A model generated the notes under the pieces. That model saw only the letters and a list, made by a program, of their open reading frames with translations, was not told the origin of the DNA and searched no databases. A stretch of 27,668 nucleotides of DNA, taken from IMG/VR virus record IMGVR_UViG_3300030117_000895, positions 1 to 27,668 of that record. One strand, written 5' to 3'. Made by a program: the position numbers and the translations under genes. Origin of the DNA: a virus. The stretch's first letter is position 1. Every line of letters begins with the position of its first letter. This document shows positions 8,693 through 20,806 of the stretch, one piece after another.

Positions 8693-10291
8693 TTATATTT
8701 TTTGACCAGTAACCCAAGATATAACTCTTTTAGTTGTGTGAGATACTGTTTTAGGCATAGTGTTCTCTTCAAACATAGAAGCTTCAAACTTTTTACTTAT
8801 TGGAGGTCTGGCTTTATTTACAGCATACCATAAACCATCCAATACATCATCGTTCTTTCCTTTAGGAAACTGAAACATTTCATCTACAAGATGAGTATGC
8901 ATTCTTTTTATAAACATTTTACCTCTATTTACAAGAGGAGCAAGTAACGATTCTAATCTATCTTCTTTTTTTATTCCAGATGGAGGTCTAACACCTAGAG
9001 CTATACCCGGAGCGACCTTTCTTTCAGTACCTGACATCTTATTTACAGCATCCTTTATTATCCCTTGAGCACCAACCATTTCTACATTTACACGTTTTAC
9101 AGGAGCATATTCTCTAGCGTACTCCATTATTTGCTCTGGCATATCATATAACGGCATATGTTCTCTCATATAGTCTATAACGTATATATTCCTATCGCTA
9201 TCTATGCCTATAACCATAATTACTTGAAAGTCACTTGACTCATTAGCTTCGTATGCTAAATCAACTCCTATGTATACATTAATGGGAACTGCATCTTTAG
9301 AGTTTACAAGGTATGCATATCCCTCTCTGCTTTCAAATTCATGGTCATAATACTCAAGTCTTTCTGTTTTAAACTTAGCATTTTCTAAATCTCTAGCTTC
9401 ATTTAAATATTCTTGTGCAAATTTATGTGCTAATCCAACATCCTCAAATCTTCTTCGTATATCTGCAAGTTTTTCTTTAGAAAAATAACTAGACCACAAC
9501 ACCTCACCATCTGCATTTATAGCCTTTTTATACATTACATCCCAAGCATAGTTTCTTTTTTCTCTTTGAGCCTCTAAGTATCCATCATATATACTTTGTA
9601 AAAAAGAATCATAGTGGACTATTGTACCTATTAACCACACAGAACCCTCGTTTCCAGCTGAGTTTTCTAATGCTGGTTCAACTGTTGACATAACCCACTC
9701 TTTAATCTCCCGTCTTCTATCTGGAGTTTTGGTGTTTAACTCAGATTCAAAGTCATCAAGTATAATTTTTGTATATCTTAATCCTAACTGAGAACGACCA
9801 CGTAATCTTTGAGATGTTCCTTTAGCTATTACCCTATCACCCTTACTTGTTGTAAATTCTTTTTCTGTCCACTTTGTACCCCTTAGGTCGCCAAAGTAAT
9901 AATTTAATGCAGGGTTGACTTCTATATGGTTTTGTAAGTATTTAATATGGTCTATTGCCTGAGATTGCTCTTCTGCTACCCACGCAATAAACTCTTTCTT
10001 ACCCTCTGGATTAAAATATAAATGATGCAATAGTGCAGTTTTAGCCAATGTAGACTTACTATGACCCCTTGGTAGTATAATGCATATTCTTTTTTTAGTG
10101 GGGTCTAATAATAAATTATTTAACTCATAATGATATGGAGCTGGTGATGACTTCATAAAGTCTTCTGGTAGGAATAACTGACCAAAAGATATAATATCTT
10201 TTTTAGCCATTTCAAGCACACGTTCTTTATCTGATACGTTATGCTTATTTATATTTACTTTCTTAGGTTTAGGCATTCCTTTGACATCCAA
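8693..10291 (-). CDS. terL: Terminase large subunit (packaging ATPase/nuclease), 532 aa
   Basis: This is the DNA-packaging motor that pumps DNA through the portal and cuts the concatemer. Visible motifs are a Walker A variant LPRGHSKST (73-81, K79), a Walker B region IILDDFE (D179/D180/E182), and a RNase-H-like nuclease with IGVDLAY (D344), VNVEMVG (E404) and KNDDVLDG (D481/D482/D485). Length is normal for the family. The start at 10291 overlaps the end of the cyclotransferase gene by 37 bases. A second ATG at 10276 (MPKPKK) follows AAAGGA very closely and is the alternative. No terminator follows the stop; the next promoter is immediately downstream. Confidence 0.95.
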   Translation of the reverse strand: MDVKGMPKPKKVNINKHNVSDKERVLEMAKKDIISFGQLFLPEDFMKSSPAPYHYELNNLLLDPTKKRICIILPRGHSKSTLAKTALLHHLYFNPEGKKEFIAWVAEEQSQAIDHIKYLQNHIEVNPALNYYFGDLRGTKWTEKEFTTSKGDRVIAKGTSQRLRGRSQLGLRYTKIILDDFESELNTKTPDRRREIKEWVMSTVEPALENSAGNEGSVWLIGTIVHYDSFLQSIYDGYLEAQREKRNYAWDVMYKKAINADGEVLWSSYFSKEKLADIRRRFEDVGLAHKFAQEYLNEARDLENAKFKTERLEYYDHEFESREGYAYLVNSKDAVPINVYIGVDLAYEANESSDFQVIMVIGIDSDRNIYVIDYMREHMPLYDMPEQIMEYAREYAPVKRVNVEMVGAQGIIKDAVNKMSGTERKVAPGIALGVRPPSGIKKEDRLESLLAPLVNRGKMFIKRMHTHLVDEMFQFPKGKNDDVLDGLWYAVNKARPPISKKFEASMFEENTMPKTVSHTTKRVISWVTGQKI

Positions 10292-10626
10292 TCTTGCTTT
10301 GGAACCATTTCAAAAACTTTTGTACCTTGAAGAAGTGCGGCTCCAATAGTATACATCCAAGCATCTATAACATCGGACTTATTATGCACCTTAACCATTC
10401 TTCTTTCATACAGACCAGTATCTATGCTTTCATACCTGTCATAGTTTGCTAGGTCAAATTCATCAACATCAATTAATTCAACAACCATATCTTTGGCTTT
10501 TCTATCATGCATTGCGGCAGGATAGTGTCTATGCCCCGGAAAAACCAATGAAAACCCATTAACTTTCCATAGGTCTCGCTTACCGTTTCTTAATGTTCCG
10601 TATACTGCTAATTTATTCGTCTTCAT
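10255..10626 (-). CDS. Gamma-glutamylcyclotransferase-like (Aig2/GGCT) protein, 123 aa
   Basis: The N-terminal YGTLRNG (residues 9-15) is the substrate-binding signature of the GGCT/AIG2 fold. DRYESIDTGLYERR (63-76) supplies the acidic catalytic residue (probably E66) and the conserved LYxR segment, and AWMYT (89-93) is the usual last strand. Family members cleave gamma-glutamyl amides with release of 5-oxoproline. Pfam notes Aig2-type cyclotransferases as gene neighbours of Amidoligase_2 enzymes, and this phage has two of those on the other strand. The gene lies between TerS and TerL and overlaps TerL. I chose the ATG at 10626 over the TTG one codon upstream. Confidence 0.8.
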   Translation of the reverse strand: MKTNKLAVYGTLRNGKRDLWKVNGFSLVFPGHRHYPAAMHDRKAKDMVVELIDVDEFDLANYDRYESIDTGLYERRMVKVHNKSDVIDAWMYTIGAALLQGTKVFEMVPKQDWMSKECLNLRK

Positions 10627-15899: not shown

Positions 15900-16319
15900 A
15901 TGCAGACATTTCTACCACATAAAGATTTCTCTATCTCTGCTAGTATACTAGACTATCGCAGACTAGGTAAGCAGAGAGTAGAAGCATTACAAATATACAA
16001 TGCATTAGTAGGTAATCCTACCTTACAAGGTAGAACCTACAAAGGTTGGTTAAGACATCCTGCCGTTCTAATGTGGGATGGTTATGTAGAAGCGTTGTTA
16101 CTCTATAAAAACAAAATGATAGAAGAATGGATACTAAGAGGATACAATAATAGTATGGAGTTAGTAGGTTTGCCAGATTCTATAGAGATGCCTCCTTGGT
16201 TAGGTGATGATAGAGTACACGCTTCTCATAGAAGCAACTTACTACGTAAAGACTTCAACTATTACTCTAAGTATAATTGGAAAGAACCAATAGATATGGA
16301 GTACTATTGGGCAGTCTAG
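15900..16319 (+). CDS. Endonuclease V/pyrimidine-dimer glycosylase-like protein (MSMEG_6728 type), 139 aa
   Basis: The opening MQTFLPHKDFSISASILDYR, followed by RLGKQRVEALQIYNAL (21-36), RHPAVLMWDGYVEALL (52-67), LPPW-like MPPWLGDDRVHASHRSNLLR (97-116) and KDFNYYS, matches the bacterial MSMEG_6728 family as I remember it. That family is related to T4 DenV, the pyrimidine-dimer DNA glycosylase. Length is that of DenV. A role in repair of UV-damaged phage DNA follows from the family, although activity of this branch is little tested. The start is four bases after the preceding stop. Confidence 0.75.
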   Translation: MQTFLPHKDFSISASILDYRRLGKQRVEALQIYNALVGNPTLQGRTYKGWLRHPAVLMWDGYVEALLLYKNKMIEEWILRGYNNSMELVGLPDSIEMPPWLGDDRVHASHRSNLLRKDFNYYSKYNWKEPIDMEYYWAV

Positions 16320-16353: not shown

Positions 16354-16500
16354 ATGCAAGAGATACTTAAACATCTACTTGGCTCTTGTGGAGAAAGTCA
16401 CGTTAGTCTACTAACGATTTTCTCTAGTGGGATTGTATTTCTATATAGAGATTATATAGTAGCAATACTAAAGGAGATAAGAGATGTTCTATTCAAATGA
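16354..16500 (+). CDS. 48-aa small membrane-associated protein
   Basis: The frame begins MQEILKHLLGSCGESHVSLL and holds a hydrophobic segment (about 17-31, VSLLTIFSSGIVFLY) followed by a charged helix. GATAGGAGAGAG lies just before the start. It fills the gap between the glycosylase and the first ligase gene, and its last codons overlap that gene by 17 bases. Unrecognised. Confidence 0.5.
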   Translation: MQEILKHLLGSCGESHVSLLTIFSSGIVFLYRDYIVAILKEIRDVLFK

Positions 16501-18298
16501 AGTAGTATTAATGAAAACACATTCTTGTAGATATGTAGATTCTACTAACATAAGGGATTTAGATTTATCTATTGATGGCGTACTACATAAGGATAATGCT
16601 GTATTAGGTAGTGAGTTCAAAAGCGTCAAGTCTCGTATATTTAAAATAGTAGATGTATATTACCATACAGAACGAGAACTATCTATTACACGTAATCCTA
16701 CATCTATTATAATACAAGGTAAGTATGACCCTAATGTAAAATTAATATGTAGAGCAAGTGACCTATTATATATGCACGAGAATATAGCAACTGTTAAATA
16801 TAATAGTTTGTATGCTACGTATGATATTTACACGTTAGGAGCATCTAAAACAGAAGATAGCTACTATGATATTGCTGATATGTACTCATATATTAGATAC
16901 AATAATGATGAACAGATACATAAAATAGTACAAAAAATATATGCAAGTGACAAGTTTGTAGATAGCTCAGATGTTAGGTTACATAGTAATAGTTCTTATT
17001 ATAAATCTATATATAGTATAAATCTTGGTATTATAATACGTCAAATAGCTAATAATAATAATAGAATATTAGAGTATATTCATTGTAGAAAATGTCTAAA
17101 TGACACTCTCAAGTATAGAGAATTTCCTAACTATGGAGATTTATGTAGATGGTGTTATGAGAACTCATTAATAGAATGTGATGTATGTGGATGTGAGTCA
17201 AAGCTAGATAAAGTAAAAACTAAAGAATCCCTTAGAATCAATAGAAATTTACAGCTAGAAAGTGTTTTTATAGATAGCGAAGTTGATGTATGTTGCCATG
17301 AATGTATAGAATCATTTCATATATCTTGCACTAAATGTAAGAAAATAGATTACATAGATTTTGAATTAGTACGAAACTCTGAGTTTAAGTCACAAACTTT
17401 TAGAGATTTTCAACATAATAACAAAGAATACTCTCGTATATTTAGTAGTATTTACTGCAATAACTGTGCAACATCTAGATTATCAAACTATCTAGATAAT
17501 CCTTTTAGAGGTAGAGATTTACCTAGATTGTTTGCATCTAAAAGTGAATTTAATAGATTTGTAGGTATAGAAAGTGAAGTTATTACTCATTATGACAGTG
17601 CAGGTAACTATTCAGAAGAAGCTGATGTACCTATAAATTTTGAAGTAGTAAATGATGGCTCACTAAATGAAGGTGGAGTAGAATTTAGAACTAATAGACC
17701 AATTATTGGAAAAACTGTATTATCTGCATTAGATAACCTAGAAAAAGTACATAGAGTCTACGACAATTACACAGATAGTAGTTGTGGTGTACATATACAT
17801 ATGAACGCAAGAGACTTTGCGTTTGTAGAAATAAAATCTCTATTAATGATTATGACAAAAATACAACCATTACTATACCTATCTCTACCAAGTAATAGAG
17901 GTGAGGATTATTGCAGGCAATTAGAATGGAGTATGGAAGAATTAAGAGGTATAAAAAACTTACCTCAATTAGTTACTAGCTATTACAACTTACAAGACTC
18001 TATATTTTCAGATGATAAATACAACGAAGCTAGATATACAGGTACTAATATACACGCTAGATTTCTACTAGGTTCAATAGAGTTTAGATACCATGAGGGT
18101 ACTACTAACTCTACTAAAATAGTAGAATGGATAAGATTTCTAAATAAGATAATGAAACAATCTATTAATCTACATAGTAATAATAGATTATATAGAAAAA
18201 TCATTAATAACAAAACTCACGCTATGGATGTAGTAAGAGAAATTACTGGTATTAGTGGTGTTGAGTACTTAGAAAACAGAATAAATAACAACGAATAG
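16484..18298 (+). CDS. Amidoligase_2 family COOH-NH2 ligase with Cys-rich modules, 604 aa
   Basis: Residues about 355-560 are a glutamine-synthetase-like amidoligase: FVGIESEV (G361-E363), INFEVVNDGSLNEGGVEF, SSCGVHIHM (C434, H437, H439), NIHARFLLGSIEFRYHEG (E533, R535) and KIVEWIRFLNKIM. These motifs form the ATP/metal site of enzymes that join a carboxyl to an amine. Residues 200-345 hold several CxxC pairs (HCRKC at 201/204, LCRWC, ECDVCG, VCCHEC, SCTKCKK, YCNNC), probably zinc-binding treble clefs. Residues 1-200 are unrecognised. AAGGAG stands before the ATG. It is followed closely by an amidotransferase gene and a second ligase, so the three probably act together. Confidence 0.85.
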   Translation: MFYSNEVVLMKTHSCRYVDSTNIRDLDLSIDGVLHKDNAVLGSEFKSVKSRIFKIVDVYYHTERELSITRNPTSIIIQGKYDPNVKLICRASDLLYMHENIATVKYNSLYATYDIYTLGASKTEDSYYDIADMYSYIRYNNDEQIHKIVQKIYASDKFVDSSDVRLHSNSSYYKSIYSINLGIIIRQIANNNNRILEYIHCRKCLNDTLKYREFPNYGDLCRWCYENSLIECDVCGCESKLDKVKTKESLRINRNLQLESVFIDSEVDVCCHECIESFHISCTKCKKIDYIDFELVRNSEFKSQTFRDFQHNNKEYSRIFSSIYCNNCATSRLSNYLDNPFRGRDLPRLFASKSEFNRFVGIESEVITHYDSAGNYSEEADVPINFEVVNDGSLNEGGVEFRTNRPIIGKTVLSALDNLEKVHRVYDNYTDSSCGVHIHMNARDFAFVEIKSLLMIMTKIQPLLYLSLPSNRGEDYCRQLEWSMEELRGIKNLPQLVTSYYNLQDSIFSDDKYNEARYTGTNIHARFLLGSIEFRYHEGTTNSTKIVEWIRFLNKIMKQSINLHSNNRLYRKIINNKTHAMDVVREITGISGVEYLENRINNNE

Positions 18299-18314
18299 AA
18301 AAGGAGAAAATAGA

Positions 18315-19355
18315 ATGTGTGGTATCTTTGGTTTTGCCAAGACTAATGGCAGACAATCAGACAACCAACTAGATATTCTTAAGAGAGTTTTTACAGAACT
18401 AACAGACGAATCTTCTATCAGAGGTACTGATAGTACAGGTTTTTCTATTATGGATGACACTAATAGATTTACCTACAAGACTCTGTTGGATTCTTCTGCT
18501 CTCGTAGATACAGATAGTTGGAACACAGAGATTCTTGATAGAATCACAAGAGATACTACTATTGTTATGGGACACGTTAGATTAGCTACACAAGGTTCTA
18601 TAAAAGTGCAGAACGCTCACCCATTTAATATAGGTAGAGTAACAGGTGCACACAATGGTATTATCTACAATTACAATCAAGTAGCAAAACAACTAGGTAA
18701 AGACATACCTGACGTAGATTCTCAAGTACTGTTTCAATCTCTTAATAAAAATAGTAAAGCTAATGCTTTTAAAGAAATAGATGGAGACTTTGCTATTACT
18801 TGGGTTAAGGATAGTAACAAGCAAATACATCTAGCTAGAGAATCTGGTAGACCTATGGTAGTTGCCTATTGGAAGAAGGCTAGGACATTGTTATGGGCAT
18901 CTACTAAAAATATATTACTAGATGCTATGACTAGAGCAGGCTTAGTCCTACCTATTAAGAAGATAAAAGAGGATTATGTATTTACTTACGATGTAGATAA
19001 CTTTGATAAAAGTCCTAATAGGACTCAAGAGAAGTTTGAGACCATAAGCCAATACGATAATTACAGTAGAAGATACTATGGTCATGGAAATACTGCTTGG
19101 GGTGGATACCACTACTACGGTTTTGGTAATGGTAACAATGGCTATGCTTCTAGTCCAGCTACATCTATGATAACAGATGGTAGTTCTTCTAATCCTCAGA
19201 AGAAGGTAGAGATGTGTGACTACTGCTATGAATGGATAGATGTAGATGAGATATGGACAGATGCAAGTAGTAAAAAGGTGTGTTTTGATTGTGAGTATTT
19301 CCCTAGTGCTTATGATAGTAAGGAGGTGGATAATGAAGATTCCTGCCCCTTCTAA
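18315..19355 (+). CDS. Class II glutamine amidotransferase with C-terminal zinc module, 346 aa
   Basis: MCGIFGFA puts the catalytic Cys at position 2, exposed after Met removal. Further class II (Ntn) motifs are RGTDSTG (36-42), GHVRLATQGS (86-95), NAHPF (100-104), HNGIIYNY (113-120), D135 and GDFAITW (157-163). The domain would release ammonia from glutamine. After residue 250 a Tyr/Gly/Asn-rich linker leads to a zinc knuckle pair (C301/C304, C323/C326). No synthetase domain is fused, so ammonia must go to a partner, most simply one of the adjacent amidoligases. The start has AAAAGGAG. Pfam describes this pairing for Amidoligase_2. Confidence 0.9.
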   Translation: MCGIFGFAKTNGRQSDNQLDILKRVFTELTDESSIRGTDSTGFSIMDDTNRFTYKTLLDSSALVDTDSWNTEILDRITRDTTIVMGHVRLATQGSIKVQNAHPFNIGRVTGAHNGIIYNYNQVAKQLGKDIPDVDSQVLFQSLNKNSKANAFKEIDGDFAITWVKDSNKQIHLARESGRPMVVAYWKKARTLLWASTKNILLDAMTRAGLVLPIKKIKEDYVFTYDVDNFDKSPNRTQEKFETISQYDNYSRRYYGHGNTAWGGYHYYGFGNGNNGYASSPATSMITDGSSSNPQKKVEMCDYCYEWIDVDEIWTDASSKKVCFDCEYFPSAYDSKEVDNEDSCPF

Positions 19356-19647
19356 AAAGGTAATACTAATAGGGTTTCCTAATCCTATTAAACTAAAGTC
19401 TAAGAAATACGTAATAAAGAAACTATACGAAAGAGCTAAAAAGAATCCGTTCCTAGCTAATAGTTCATACGAAGAATACTTAGAATTTCTACATAATCAA
19501 ATAAAAGAACTTGGTTCAATAGATGTAGATATGGAGTCAGAACAAGTAGAACATAAATTGTACGACGCTCTTAAAGAGATTAAATGGTTAAAGGTGGTGA
19601 ATGCTTTTGTAGTAGGTTTTATACAAGCTACAAATATAGGAGTCTGA
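19333..19647 (+). CDS. Hypothetical protein inside the amidoligase cassette, 104 aa
   Basis: I start it at the ATG at 19333, seven bases after AAGGAGG and 23 bases inside the amidotransferase gene. The protein is basic at the start (KKVILIGFPNPIKLKSKKYV) and helical afterwards (ERAKKNPFLANSSYEEYLEF), ending in a more hydrophobic helix (VVNAFVVGFIQATNIGV). It lies between the amidotransferase and the second ligase. It could be a substrate, carrier or subunit of the system, but nothing shows which. Unrecognised. Confidence 0.7.
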   Translation: MKIPAPSKKVILIGFPNPIKLKSKKYVIKKLYERAKKNPFLANSSYEEYLEFLHNQIKELGSIDVDMESEQVEHKLYDALKEIKWLKVVNAFVVGFIQATNIGV

Positions 19648-19648
19648 T

Positions 19649-20806
19649 ATGCCAGTAGAAAACCAAGCACAAAGAACACGAACTAGAGCAGATGTAGATA
19701 CTAGAGACTGTGAATGTTGTGGTGATAGCCACGCAGTAAGTAACTTTTCTACTATGCATAATGTATGTGAATGTTGTGTAGAAAACAACTACTCTACGTG
19801 TCAAGGTTGTAATGACCAAGTACATGATGACTACATATATTGGGCACATGATAATGCCTACTGTGAGCATTGTTTCTATGATTACTTTACCTATTGTGAT
19901 AGTTGTGGAGAAGCAACAGATAGAGAGGAAACTATATACGTAGATGACTATCCCTATTGCGAATGTTGTGTTCCAGATTCATCAGAGAATTTAGTAGAAC
20001 GTATTGAAAACAGTACACCTCCAAGTAATTCTATAAAATGCAGTACTTTTAATTACAAAGTTAAGAGGCTTGTTGGTATAGAAGCAGAGTGTGTCTATGA
20101 ATATTCAGATGAGTTTTGGACACCTACAAATTGGAATAACGTATCTGATGGTTCTATAAGCACAGATATAGAAGAGTACAGTACAACAGAGTTAGTATCA
20201 GTTCCTATGAGTGGAGATTTTATAGTAGATGCAGTAGATAATCTAATGGGTTGGAAAAAGATATTTAATGCAGATGTTAATAGAAGCTGTGGTTTGCACA
20301 TACATATAGACTCTACTGATATGTCAGCTAAAGAAGTAGCTAGAGTTGGAATGGTTTATAGTTATTTTCAAGAGATACTAAAATCTATGATGCCAAAATC
20401 TAGGCAAGGTTCTAATTGGTGTAAAGATTTTAATATGATGTTTGATGATTTAGTAGGTATTGATTCAGAAGAACAGTTGGTAAGTCTATATTATGAGTCT
20501 ATGGATTCATACCCATCAACAGATAAGTATAACGACGCTAGGTATAGTGGTCTTAACTTACATAGTAGATACTATCACGGCTCATTAGAATTTAGACTAC
20601 ACTCTGGAACTCTTAACAAAACTAAGATACTTAATTGGATTAGTATATGTAATACAATAGTAGAAAAAGGCATAGAACTAAGTAAGTTAACAAGAGAAAA
20701 TGCTTATAAATGGTTTGATGTTTCAGCAGAGCATAAAATAAAAGAAGTGTTTGGTAAGAAGTTGTCTATCTATATGAATAAAAGAGTAGCAAAGTTTATG
20801 CAATAA
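19649..20806 (+). CDS. Second Amidoligase_2 protein with LIM-like Cys clusters, 385 aa
   Basis: Residues 138-345 carry the ligase motifs: LVGIEAEC (G143-E145), TTELVSVPM (E181), SCGLHIHI (C214, H217, H219), DARYSGLNLHSRYYHG, SLEFRLHSG (E314, R316) and KILNWISICN. Residues 20-110 hold repeated Cys pairs (C21/C24, C40/C43, C51/C54, C72/C75, C83/C86, C104/C107), spaced like tandem zinc ribbons or LIM halves. The ligase core differs clearly from that of the 604-aa protein, so this is an old duplication with divergence, perhaps with different acceptor specificity. GGAG precedes the start; no terminator follows, but the next gene has its own promoter. Confidence 0.85.
   Translation: MPVENQAQRTRTRADVDTRDCECCGDSHAVSNFSTMHNVCECCVENNYSTCQGCNDQVHDDYIYWAHDNAYCEHCFYDYFTYCDSCGEATDREETIYVDDYPYCECCVPDSSENLVERIENSTPPSNSIKCSTFNYKVKRLVGIEAECVYEYSDEFWTPTNWNNVSDGSISTDIEEYSTTELVSVPMSGDFIVDAVDNLMGWKKIFNADVNRSCGLHIHIDSTDMSAKEVARVGMVYSYFQEILKSMMPKSRQGSNWCKDFNMMFDDLVGIDSEEQLVSLYYESMDSYPSTDKYNDARYSGLNLHSRYYHGSLEFRLHSGTLNKTKILNWISICNTIVEKGIELSKLTRENAYKWFDVSAEHKIKEVFGKKLSIYMNKRVAKFMQ

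Follow-up and report, generated by a model that had tools for sequence, protein, structure and literature searches.

Cassettes that combine an amidoligase with a glutamine amidotransferase (GATase) form a metabolic module that recurs across many podophages and is so far unexplained. In published reports, the "peptidoglycan modification cassette" of phiEco32 and the kuraviruses, of LUZ24, PaP4 and UFV-P2, and of RIO-1 and PSA-HP1 is given a putative role at the cell wall, a hypothesis proposed since 2009. This classical cassette is described there as one Amidoligase_2 (PF12224) ligase, one PF14395 COOH-NH2 ligase, a protein of about 200 amino acids (aa) without assigned function, a class II GATase, an ATP-grasp enzyme and a gamma-glutamyl cyclotransferase (GGCT), the last usually encoded in the same operon as the ligase and the GATase. 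The literature that we searched holds no demonstrated target for any of these cassettes. Here we analyzed IMG/VR record IMGVR_UViG_3300030117_000895, whose whole 27.7-kb length we call the window and which belongs to a podovirus-like phage with a P22-like portal, an SU10-like major capsid protein, a terminase and a DnaB helicase. It carries a four-gene cassette, LIG1-GAT-SM-LIG2, consisting of two Amidoligase_2 ligases, a class II GATase (GAT) and a small protein (SM). Like the podophage cassettes, the window phage has Amidoligase_2, a class II GATase and an AIG2-like GGCT, with ligase and GATase encoded in the early or replication part of the genome; unlike them, its lineage has a doubled PF12224 ligase, SM, zinc ribbons on the ligases and a GGCT gene between the terminase genes. 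The families and their complete active-site motifs indicate that the reaction is very probably amide formation with glutamine-derived ammonia, and a complete amide-forming pathway, as the initial annotation of this DNA had proposed, is the natural reading. The features are as follows.

16484-18298, + strand: LIG1, Amidoligase_2 (PF12224) ligase of 604 aa, the first ~195 of which have no assigned function (Pfam, AlphaFold2 model, structure matches)
17084-17467, + strand: LIG1 zinc-ribbon-like array of three CxxC...CxxC units, residues 201-328 (12 Cys invariant in 17 homologues)
17552-18157, + strand: LIG1 glutamine synthetase (GS)-like catalytic domain, residues ~357-558 (E363, E365, D391, E400, H437, H439, R517, N522, E533, R535)
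18315-19355, + strand: GAT, class II (N-terminal nucleophile, Ntn) glutamine amidotransferase of 346 aa (GATase_6, invariant residues, PDB profile matches)
19215-19292, + strand: GAT C-terminal CxxC-x18-CxxC zinc-ribbon-like unit (C301, C304, C323, C326 invariant in 17 homologues)
19333-19647, + strand: SM, helical protein of 104 aa without a family (four-helix AlphaFold2 model, linkage to LIG2)
19649-20806, + strand: LIG2, Amidoligase_2 (PF12224) ligase of 385 aa (Pfam; sister clade of LIG1)
19709-19969, + strand: LIG2 zinc-ribbon-like array of three CxxC...CxxC units, residues 21-107 (Cys columns line up with those of LIG1)
20057-20683, + strand: LIG2 GS-like catalytic domain, residues ~137-345 (E145, E147, D167, E181, H217, H219, R298, N303, E314, R316)
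10255-10626, - strand: GGCT, AIG2-like gamma-glutamyl cyclotransferase (PF06094) of 123 aa, between the small and large terminase genes (44.6 bits, E=4e-13)

The four cassette genes run on the + strand from 16484 to 20806, each behind a good ribosome-binding site, and are surrounded by replication genes (exonuclease, DnaB helicase). GAT and SM overlap by 23 nucleotides, so that the SM start, with AAGGAGGT upstream of it, falls within the 3' end of GAT, and a single nucleotide separates the end of SM from LIG2.

Compared with the classical cassette, the window lineage also lacks several components. PF14395 was found in 0 of 16 relatives, while the same search was positive for 7 of the 8 named phages that served as controls, all 8 of which carried exactly one PF12224. 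A home-made PF14395 profile and an ATP-grasp profile built from six phage members (E up to 10) found nothing in the window or in 10 long contigs, and the ~200-aa protein of the classical cassette was not found in the lineage. In a collection of 50,697 phage records, no record had two places matching either ligase. The Clostridium clostridioforme prophages phi13-alpha and phi13-epsilon do share two amidoligase open reading frames (ORFs) of PHROG 2443, the family matched by both window ligases, together with a gamma-glutamyl cyclotransferase; compared by annotation and not by sequence, they differ in having no GATase or SM listed. The cassette of Poriferisphaera phage ZRK32 shares GATase, amidoligase and GGCT with the window phage but is of classical make-up, with PF14395 and ATP-grasp. 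The novelty implied by the initial annotation was thus overstated, because cassettes of this general kind were already known with a published hypothesis and prophages with two amidoligase ORFs and a cyclotransferase were already annotated. The novelty lies in the combination of a doubled Amidoligase_2 with zinc-ribbon arrays and SM, without PF14395 or ATP-grasp.

The initial annotation had also read the interval as two amidoligases with Amidoligase_2 core motifs, a class II glutamine amidotransferase and a 104-aa protein without a family, and all of these assignments hold. PF12224 matched both LIG1 (E=1.2e-19, 71.7 bits) and LIG2 (E=6.8e-23, 82.2 bits) above its curated cut-off of 22 bits, and the ligase motifs GIE(S/A)E, CG(V/L)HIH and EFR are present. 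Both ligases keep the GS-like catalytic pattern GxExE, D-x-S, E, CGxHxH, R/N and EFR of the family. The predicted catalytic columns pair between the paralogues in the order listed above (LIG1/LIG2 E363/E145, E365/E147, D391/D167, E400/E181 and H437/H217, followed by H439/H219, R517/R298, N522/N303, E533/E314 and R535/R316). They are kept at 94-100% in 31 LIG1 sequences and at 100% in 33 LIG2 sequences, and the majority of them are also retained in 41 remoter Amidoligase_2 proteins. With its predicted catalytic residues retained at this level, LIG1 is not favored as a pseudoenzyme. Around the active site the paralogues diverge: Tyr476 of LIG1 corresponds to Trp257 of LIG2, and S251, T321, N323, K326 and N329 are retained by LIG2 only. 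The AlphaFold2 model of LIG1 has a predicted local distance difference test (pLDDT) score of 82.5 and matches phage amidoligase structures in BFVD with E values down to 5e-14; against the PDB its matches are weak (E 0.02-0.3) and led by glutamine synthetases.

Six CxxC motifs precede the catalytic domain in either ligase and align between the paralogues, whereas none stand before the domain in seven classical-cassette amidoligases (L005-L011). Zinc-ribbon-like units also occur in simple ligase-GATase pairs of other viral contigs and of Omnitrophota genome contigs. The ribbons of the ligases may serve docking to some partner. The N-terminal ~195 aa of LIG1 (window 16484-17068) have no family match; the model is beta-rich and then helical there, and certain LIG1 proteins have a truncated version of the region or lack it (L097 and L101, about 457 aa).

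GAT was matched by GATase_6 (PF13522) with E=1.9e-18, above the curated cut-off. Its residues C2, R89, N114, G115 and D135 are invariant in 17 sequences, so that the active site is retained in relatives here as in the ligases; Cys2, directly after Met1, is the predicted nucleophile and, together with the Arg, Asn-Gly and Asp glutamine-binding residues, places GAT among the class II (Ntn) enzymes. The glutamine amidotransferase partner that Pfam records for Amidoligase_2 is presumably of a thiol-peptidase-like type, not the class II type present here. PDB profile matches of GAT fell on the glutaminase domains of GlmS and PurF, but Pfam found no partner synthase domain in the protein, and it scores far under the GlmS, AsnB and PurF equivalog cut-offs; therefore, its ammonia must pass to a separate ligase. 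The label GlmS, which many phage homologues carry, was rejected for GAT because it has no isomerase domain in Pfam and reaches 53.4 bits against a cut-off of 418. A search of bacterial genomes with the GAT profile returned distant relatives only (best 32% identity), and thus no host can be named. Such distant relatives occur in proteins of 590-730 aa in L145-L151 (Omnitrophota, Dehalococcoidales, Chloroflexi and Sumerlaeaceae contigs), with no amidoligase detected nearby.

SM had no match in Pfam, PHROG, PADLOC, NCBIfam or PDB families, and searches of PDB sequences and folds gave chance-level results only. Its AlphaFold model has four helices with disordered ends (mean pLDDT 70) and no convincing structural neighbors. 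The invariant residues are spread along the protein, and there is no CxxC motif. Among 53 loci found with the SM profile, LIG2 lies directly downstream of SM in all 53 and GAT upstream in 52, the remaining locus being cut by the contig end. Because of this obligate position beside LIG2, one would naturally guess that SM is a linker or regulatory subunit. A search of 14 SM members gave no Pfam match to GatC, and the likeness is a functional speculation.

The initial annotation had credited the phage with both recorded partners of the ligase family. GATase and AIG2/GGCT are indeed both present, but the latter gene lies outside the annotated interval, at 10255-10626 on the opposite strand, 6 kb from the cassette, and profile searches ruled out that the 104-aa protein is AIG2. 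GGCT matched PF06094 with 44.6 bits against a cut-off of 22.8, and it keeps the VYGTLRNG loop and a Glu that aligns with that of other phage cyclotransferases and is taken as catalytic. The gene was found in 16 of 17 records of the first set and in 17 of 22 of the wider set, which includes several fragments. Being encoded in the packaging operon, it may be expressed late.

The gene-neighborhood survey extended the cassette well past the window. Searches with GAT or SM sequences retrieved 16 further contigs, all with two Amidoligase_2 genes in a complete LIG1-GAT-SM-LIG2 block of the same order and strand, and one of them carries two cassettes. Profiles of LIG2 and SM widened the set to more than 50 IMG/VR contigs besides the window, in a few of which LIG1 is cut by the contig end. 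Since the four genes recur intact and syntenic, the block is far beyond chance. Nine contigs have GAT-SM-LIG2 without LIG1, with no ligase upstream of GAT where they were listed gene by gene; hence GAT-SM-LIG2 is the core and LIG1 an optional part, and GAT is paired with LIG2. Codons are under purifying selection, with ratios of nonsynonymous to synonymous substitution (dN/dS) of 0.06-0.5 in three pairs, where every gene stays below 1. LIG1 evolves fastest, and SM and GAT slowest, in the pair that includes the window.

In a tree of 106 catalytic domains, built by a quick method with Shimodaira-Hasegawa-like approximate likelihood ratio support only, all LIG1 sequences fall on one side of a branch (82) and LIG2 sequences on another (90); the two groups form sister clades (86), separate from every other phage or bacterial Amidoligase_2 protein. 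This topology indicates that LIG1 and LIG2 derive from one old duplication; as a private oddity of the window phage the duplication was rejected, being clade-wide and old in both survey and tree. The contigs without LIG1 fall in two places inside the LIG2 clade, beside LIG1-bearing lineages, with moderate supports of 89-91, and therefore loss of LIG1 from them appears more likely than late gain. Two other contigs stand out for copy number. The 50-kb contig IMGVR_UViG_3300035698_019371 has seven PF12224 matches and a GATase, a far larger expansion of the family. The 63.9-kb contig IMGVR_UViG_3300030101_002855 holds two different whole-cassette copies (about 3-6 kb and 46.8-49.8 kb) lying about 43.7 kb apart, near one genome length, as expected if two related phages stand in tandem or the assembly is chimeric.

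Our best overall explanation, which we put forward tentatively, is an early-operon, ATP-dependent amide-forming module of GAT-SM-LIG2 with LIG1 and GGCT that would act on cell-wall peptides. GAT would hydrolyze glutamine and release ammonia, SM may dock GAT onto LIG2 in the manner of the small linker subunit of other ammonia-channeling complexes, and LIG2 would use ATP to activate a substrate carboxylate and then amidate it. LIG1, the old paralogue, shares the catalytic residues but differs around the pocket and has an additional N-terminal domain; it could form a further amide or isopeptide link, on that substrate or one related to it, and so take the place that the PF14395 ligase has in the classical podophage cassette. 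GGCT, encoded with the packaging genes, could later cleave or trim gamma-glutamyl amides. In GatCAB and MurT-GatD, a glutaminase likewise passes ammonia to an ATP-dependent carboxylate-activating partner, and GatC is a linker of about 100 aa, as SM may be; their proteins belong to other glutaminase classes and other ligase folds and are not homologous to those of the window cassette. We consider it slightly more likely than not that GAT, SM and LIG2 form a complex in which SM couples GAT to LIG2. That this complex represents an undescribed three-subunit glutamine-dependent amidotransferase with a new linker of about 100 aa, and that the phage uses it together with LIG1 for an early modification, which the cyclotransferase would undo or trim late, we regard as doubtful. 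SM, tightly linked and without a known family, could represent a novel type of amidotransferase subunit. The lineage is a simplified system, in which PF14395 and ATP-grasp are gone, the core is GAT-SM-LIG2 and one paralogous ligase appears to have been gained and then lost, so that work with three or four purified proteins could address directly which ligase takes the ammonia and what its substrate is.

The substrate would most likely be the peptide carboxylate of cell-wall precursors, and the modified wall of the infected cell would resist competing phages or untimely lysis. This target, which we hold more guardedly than the module as a whole, is proposed mainly because of the literature analogy and because relatives encode an M15-type peptidase annotated as an endolysin, a type that acts on stem peptides. 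One such gene, for a small peptidase with an SxHxxGxAxD motif, lies at G001:20834-21286 with equivalents in nine other long contigs and is a probable endolysin. Several points weigh against the cell-wall module. The PF14395 ligase and the ATP-grasp enzyme on which the published cell-wall scheme relies were not found in the window lineage. Simple ligase-GATase pairs are present in genome contigs of Omnitrophota as well, and a superinfection role is harder to see there. The SM model is moderately confident and resembles no solved structure; the GAT-ribbon profile did not pick up the ligase ribbons, whose similarity to that of GAT is not significant, and therefore we claim a likeness of spacing only and not common descent.

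If the enzymes instead made and broke gamma-glutamyl amides of amines or peptides, the phage could redirect host nitrogen or build an infection metabolite. The GGCT partner suits such chemistry, ligase-GATase pairs are found in bacterial genome contigs, and the related ZRK32 cassette has been read as nitrogen metabolism with reported growth promotion; however, the accessible part of that report does not link the effect to the cassette genes by mutation, and GGCT of the window lineage sits in a separate, oppositely transcribed packaging operon, which leaves this small-molecule role unlikely in our view. GGCT bears also on the idea that the two ligases modify proteins of the host or the virion, amidating their side chains or joining amino acids to them, with the ribbons recognizing a protein or nucleic-acid complex: acting on gamma-glutamyl amines, GGCT suits small or peptide substrates at least equally. 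Three zinc-ribbon-like units per ligase, against none in the seven classical-cassette enzymes, and the position among replication genes would fit this rather unlikely alternative, and Iyer et al. in 2009 are said to have named protein modification among the roles in their title.

The adjoining exonuclease and DnaB helicase genes could point to a module that puts amide or amino groups on phage DNA bases or nucleotides. Such a role seems highly improbable, since the families listed for 50 proteins of a close 46-kb relative (for PHROG, 25 of 43 families) include no enzyme that makes a modified base, whether thymidylate-synthase-like or of the hydroxymethylase, QueC or DpdA type. A different division of labor, with LIG1 as a regulatory or scaffold paralogue that positions a solely catalytic LIG2, would agree with the faster evolution of LIG1 (47% vs 83% identity and dN 0.49 vs 0.10 in comparison with the closest relative) and its loss from nine contigs; yet the conservation of all its predicted catalytic residues across the 31 sequences is unlike a typical pseudoenzyme and makes this improbable.

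As for the surroundings of the cassette, a PF03013 (pyrimidine dimer DNA glycosylase-like) gene lies directly upstream at window 15900-16319 and likewise in relative L003, and a 138-aa ORF ahead of GAT in some contigs without LIG1 may be the same gene. PADLOC anti-phage defense models matched none of the five proteins. The ribbon-bearing ligase-GATase pairs of Omnitrophota genome contigs are located at L141 6666-9023 and L142 392-2735, and the neighbors of the former include apparent coupling-protein-like, RadC-like and other mobile-element-like genes.

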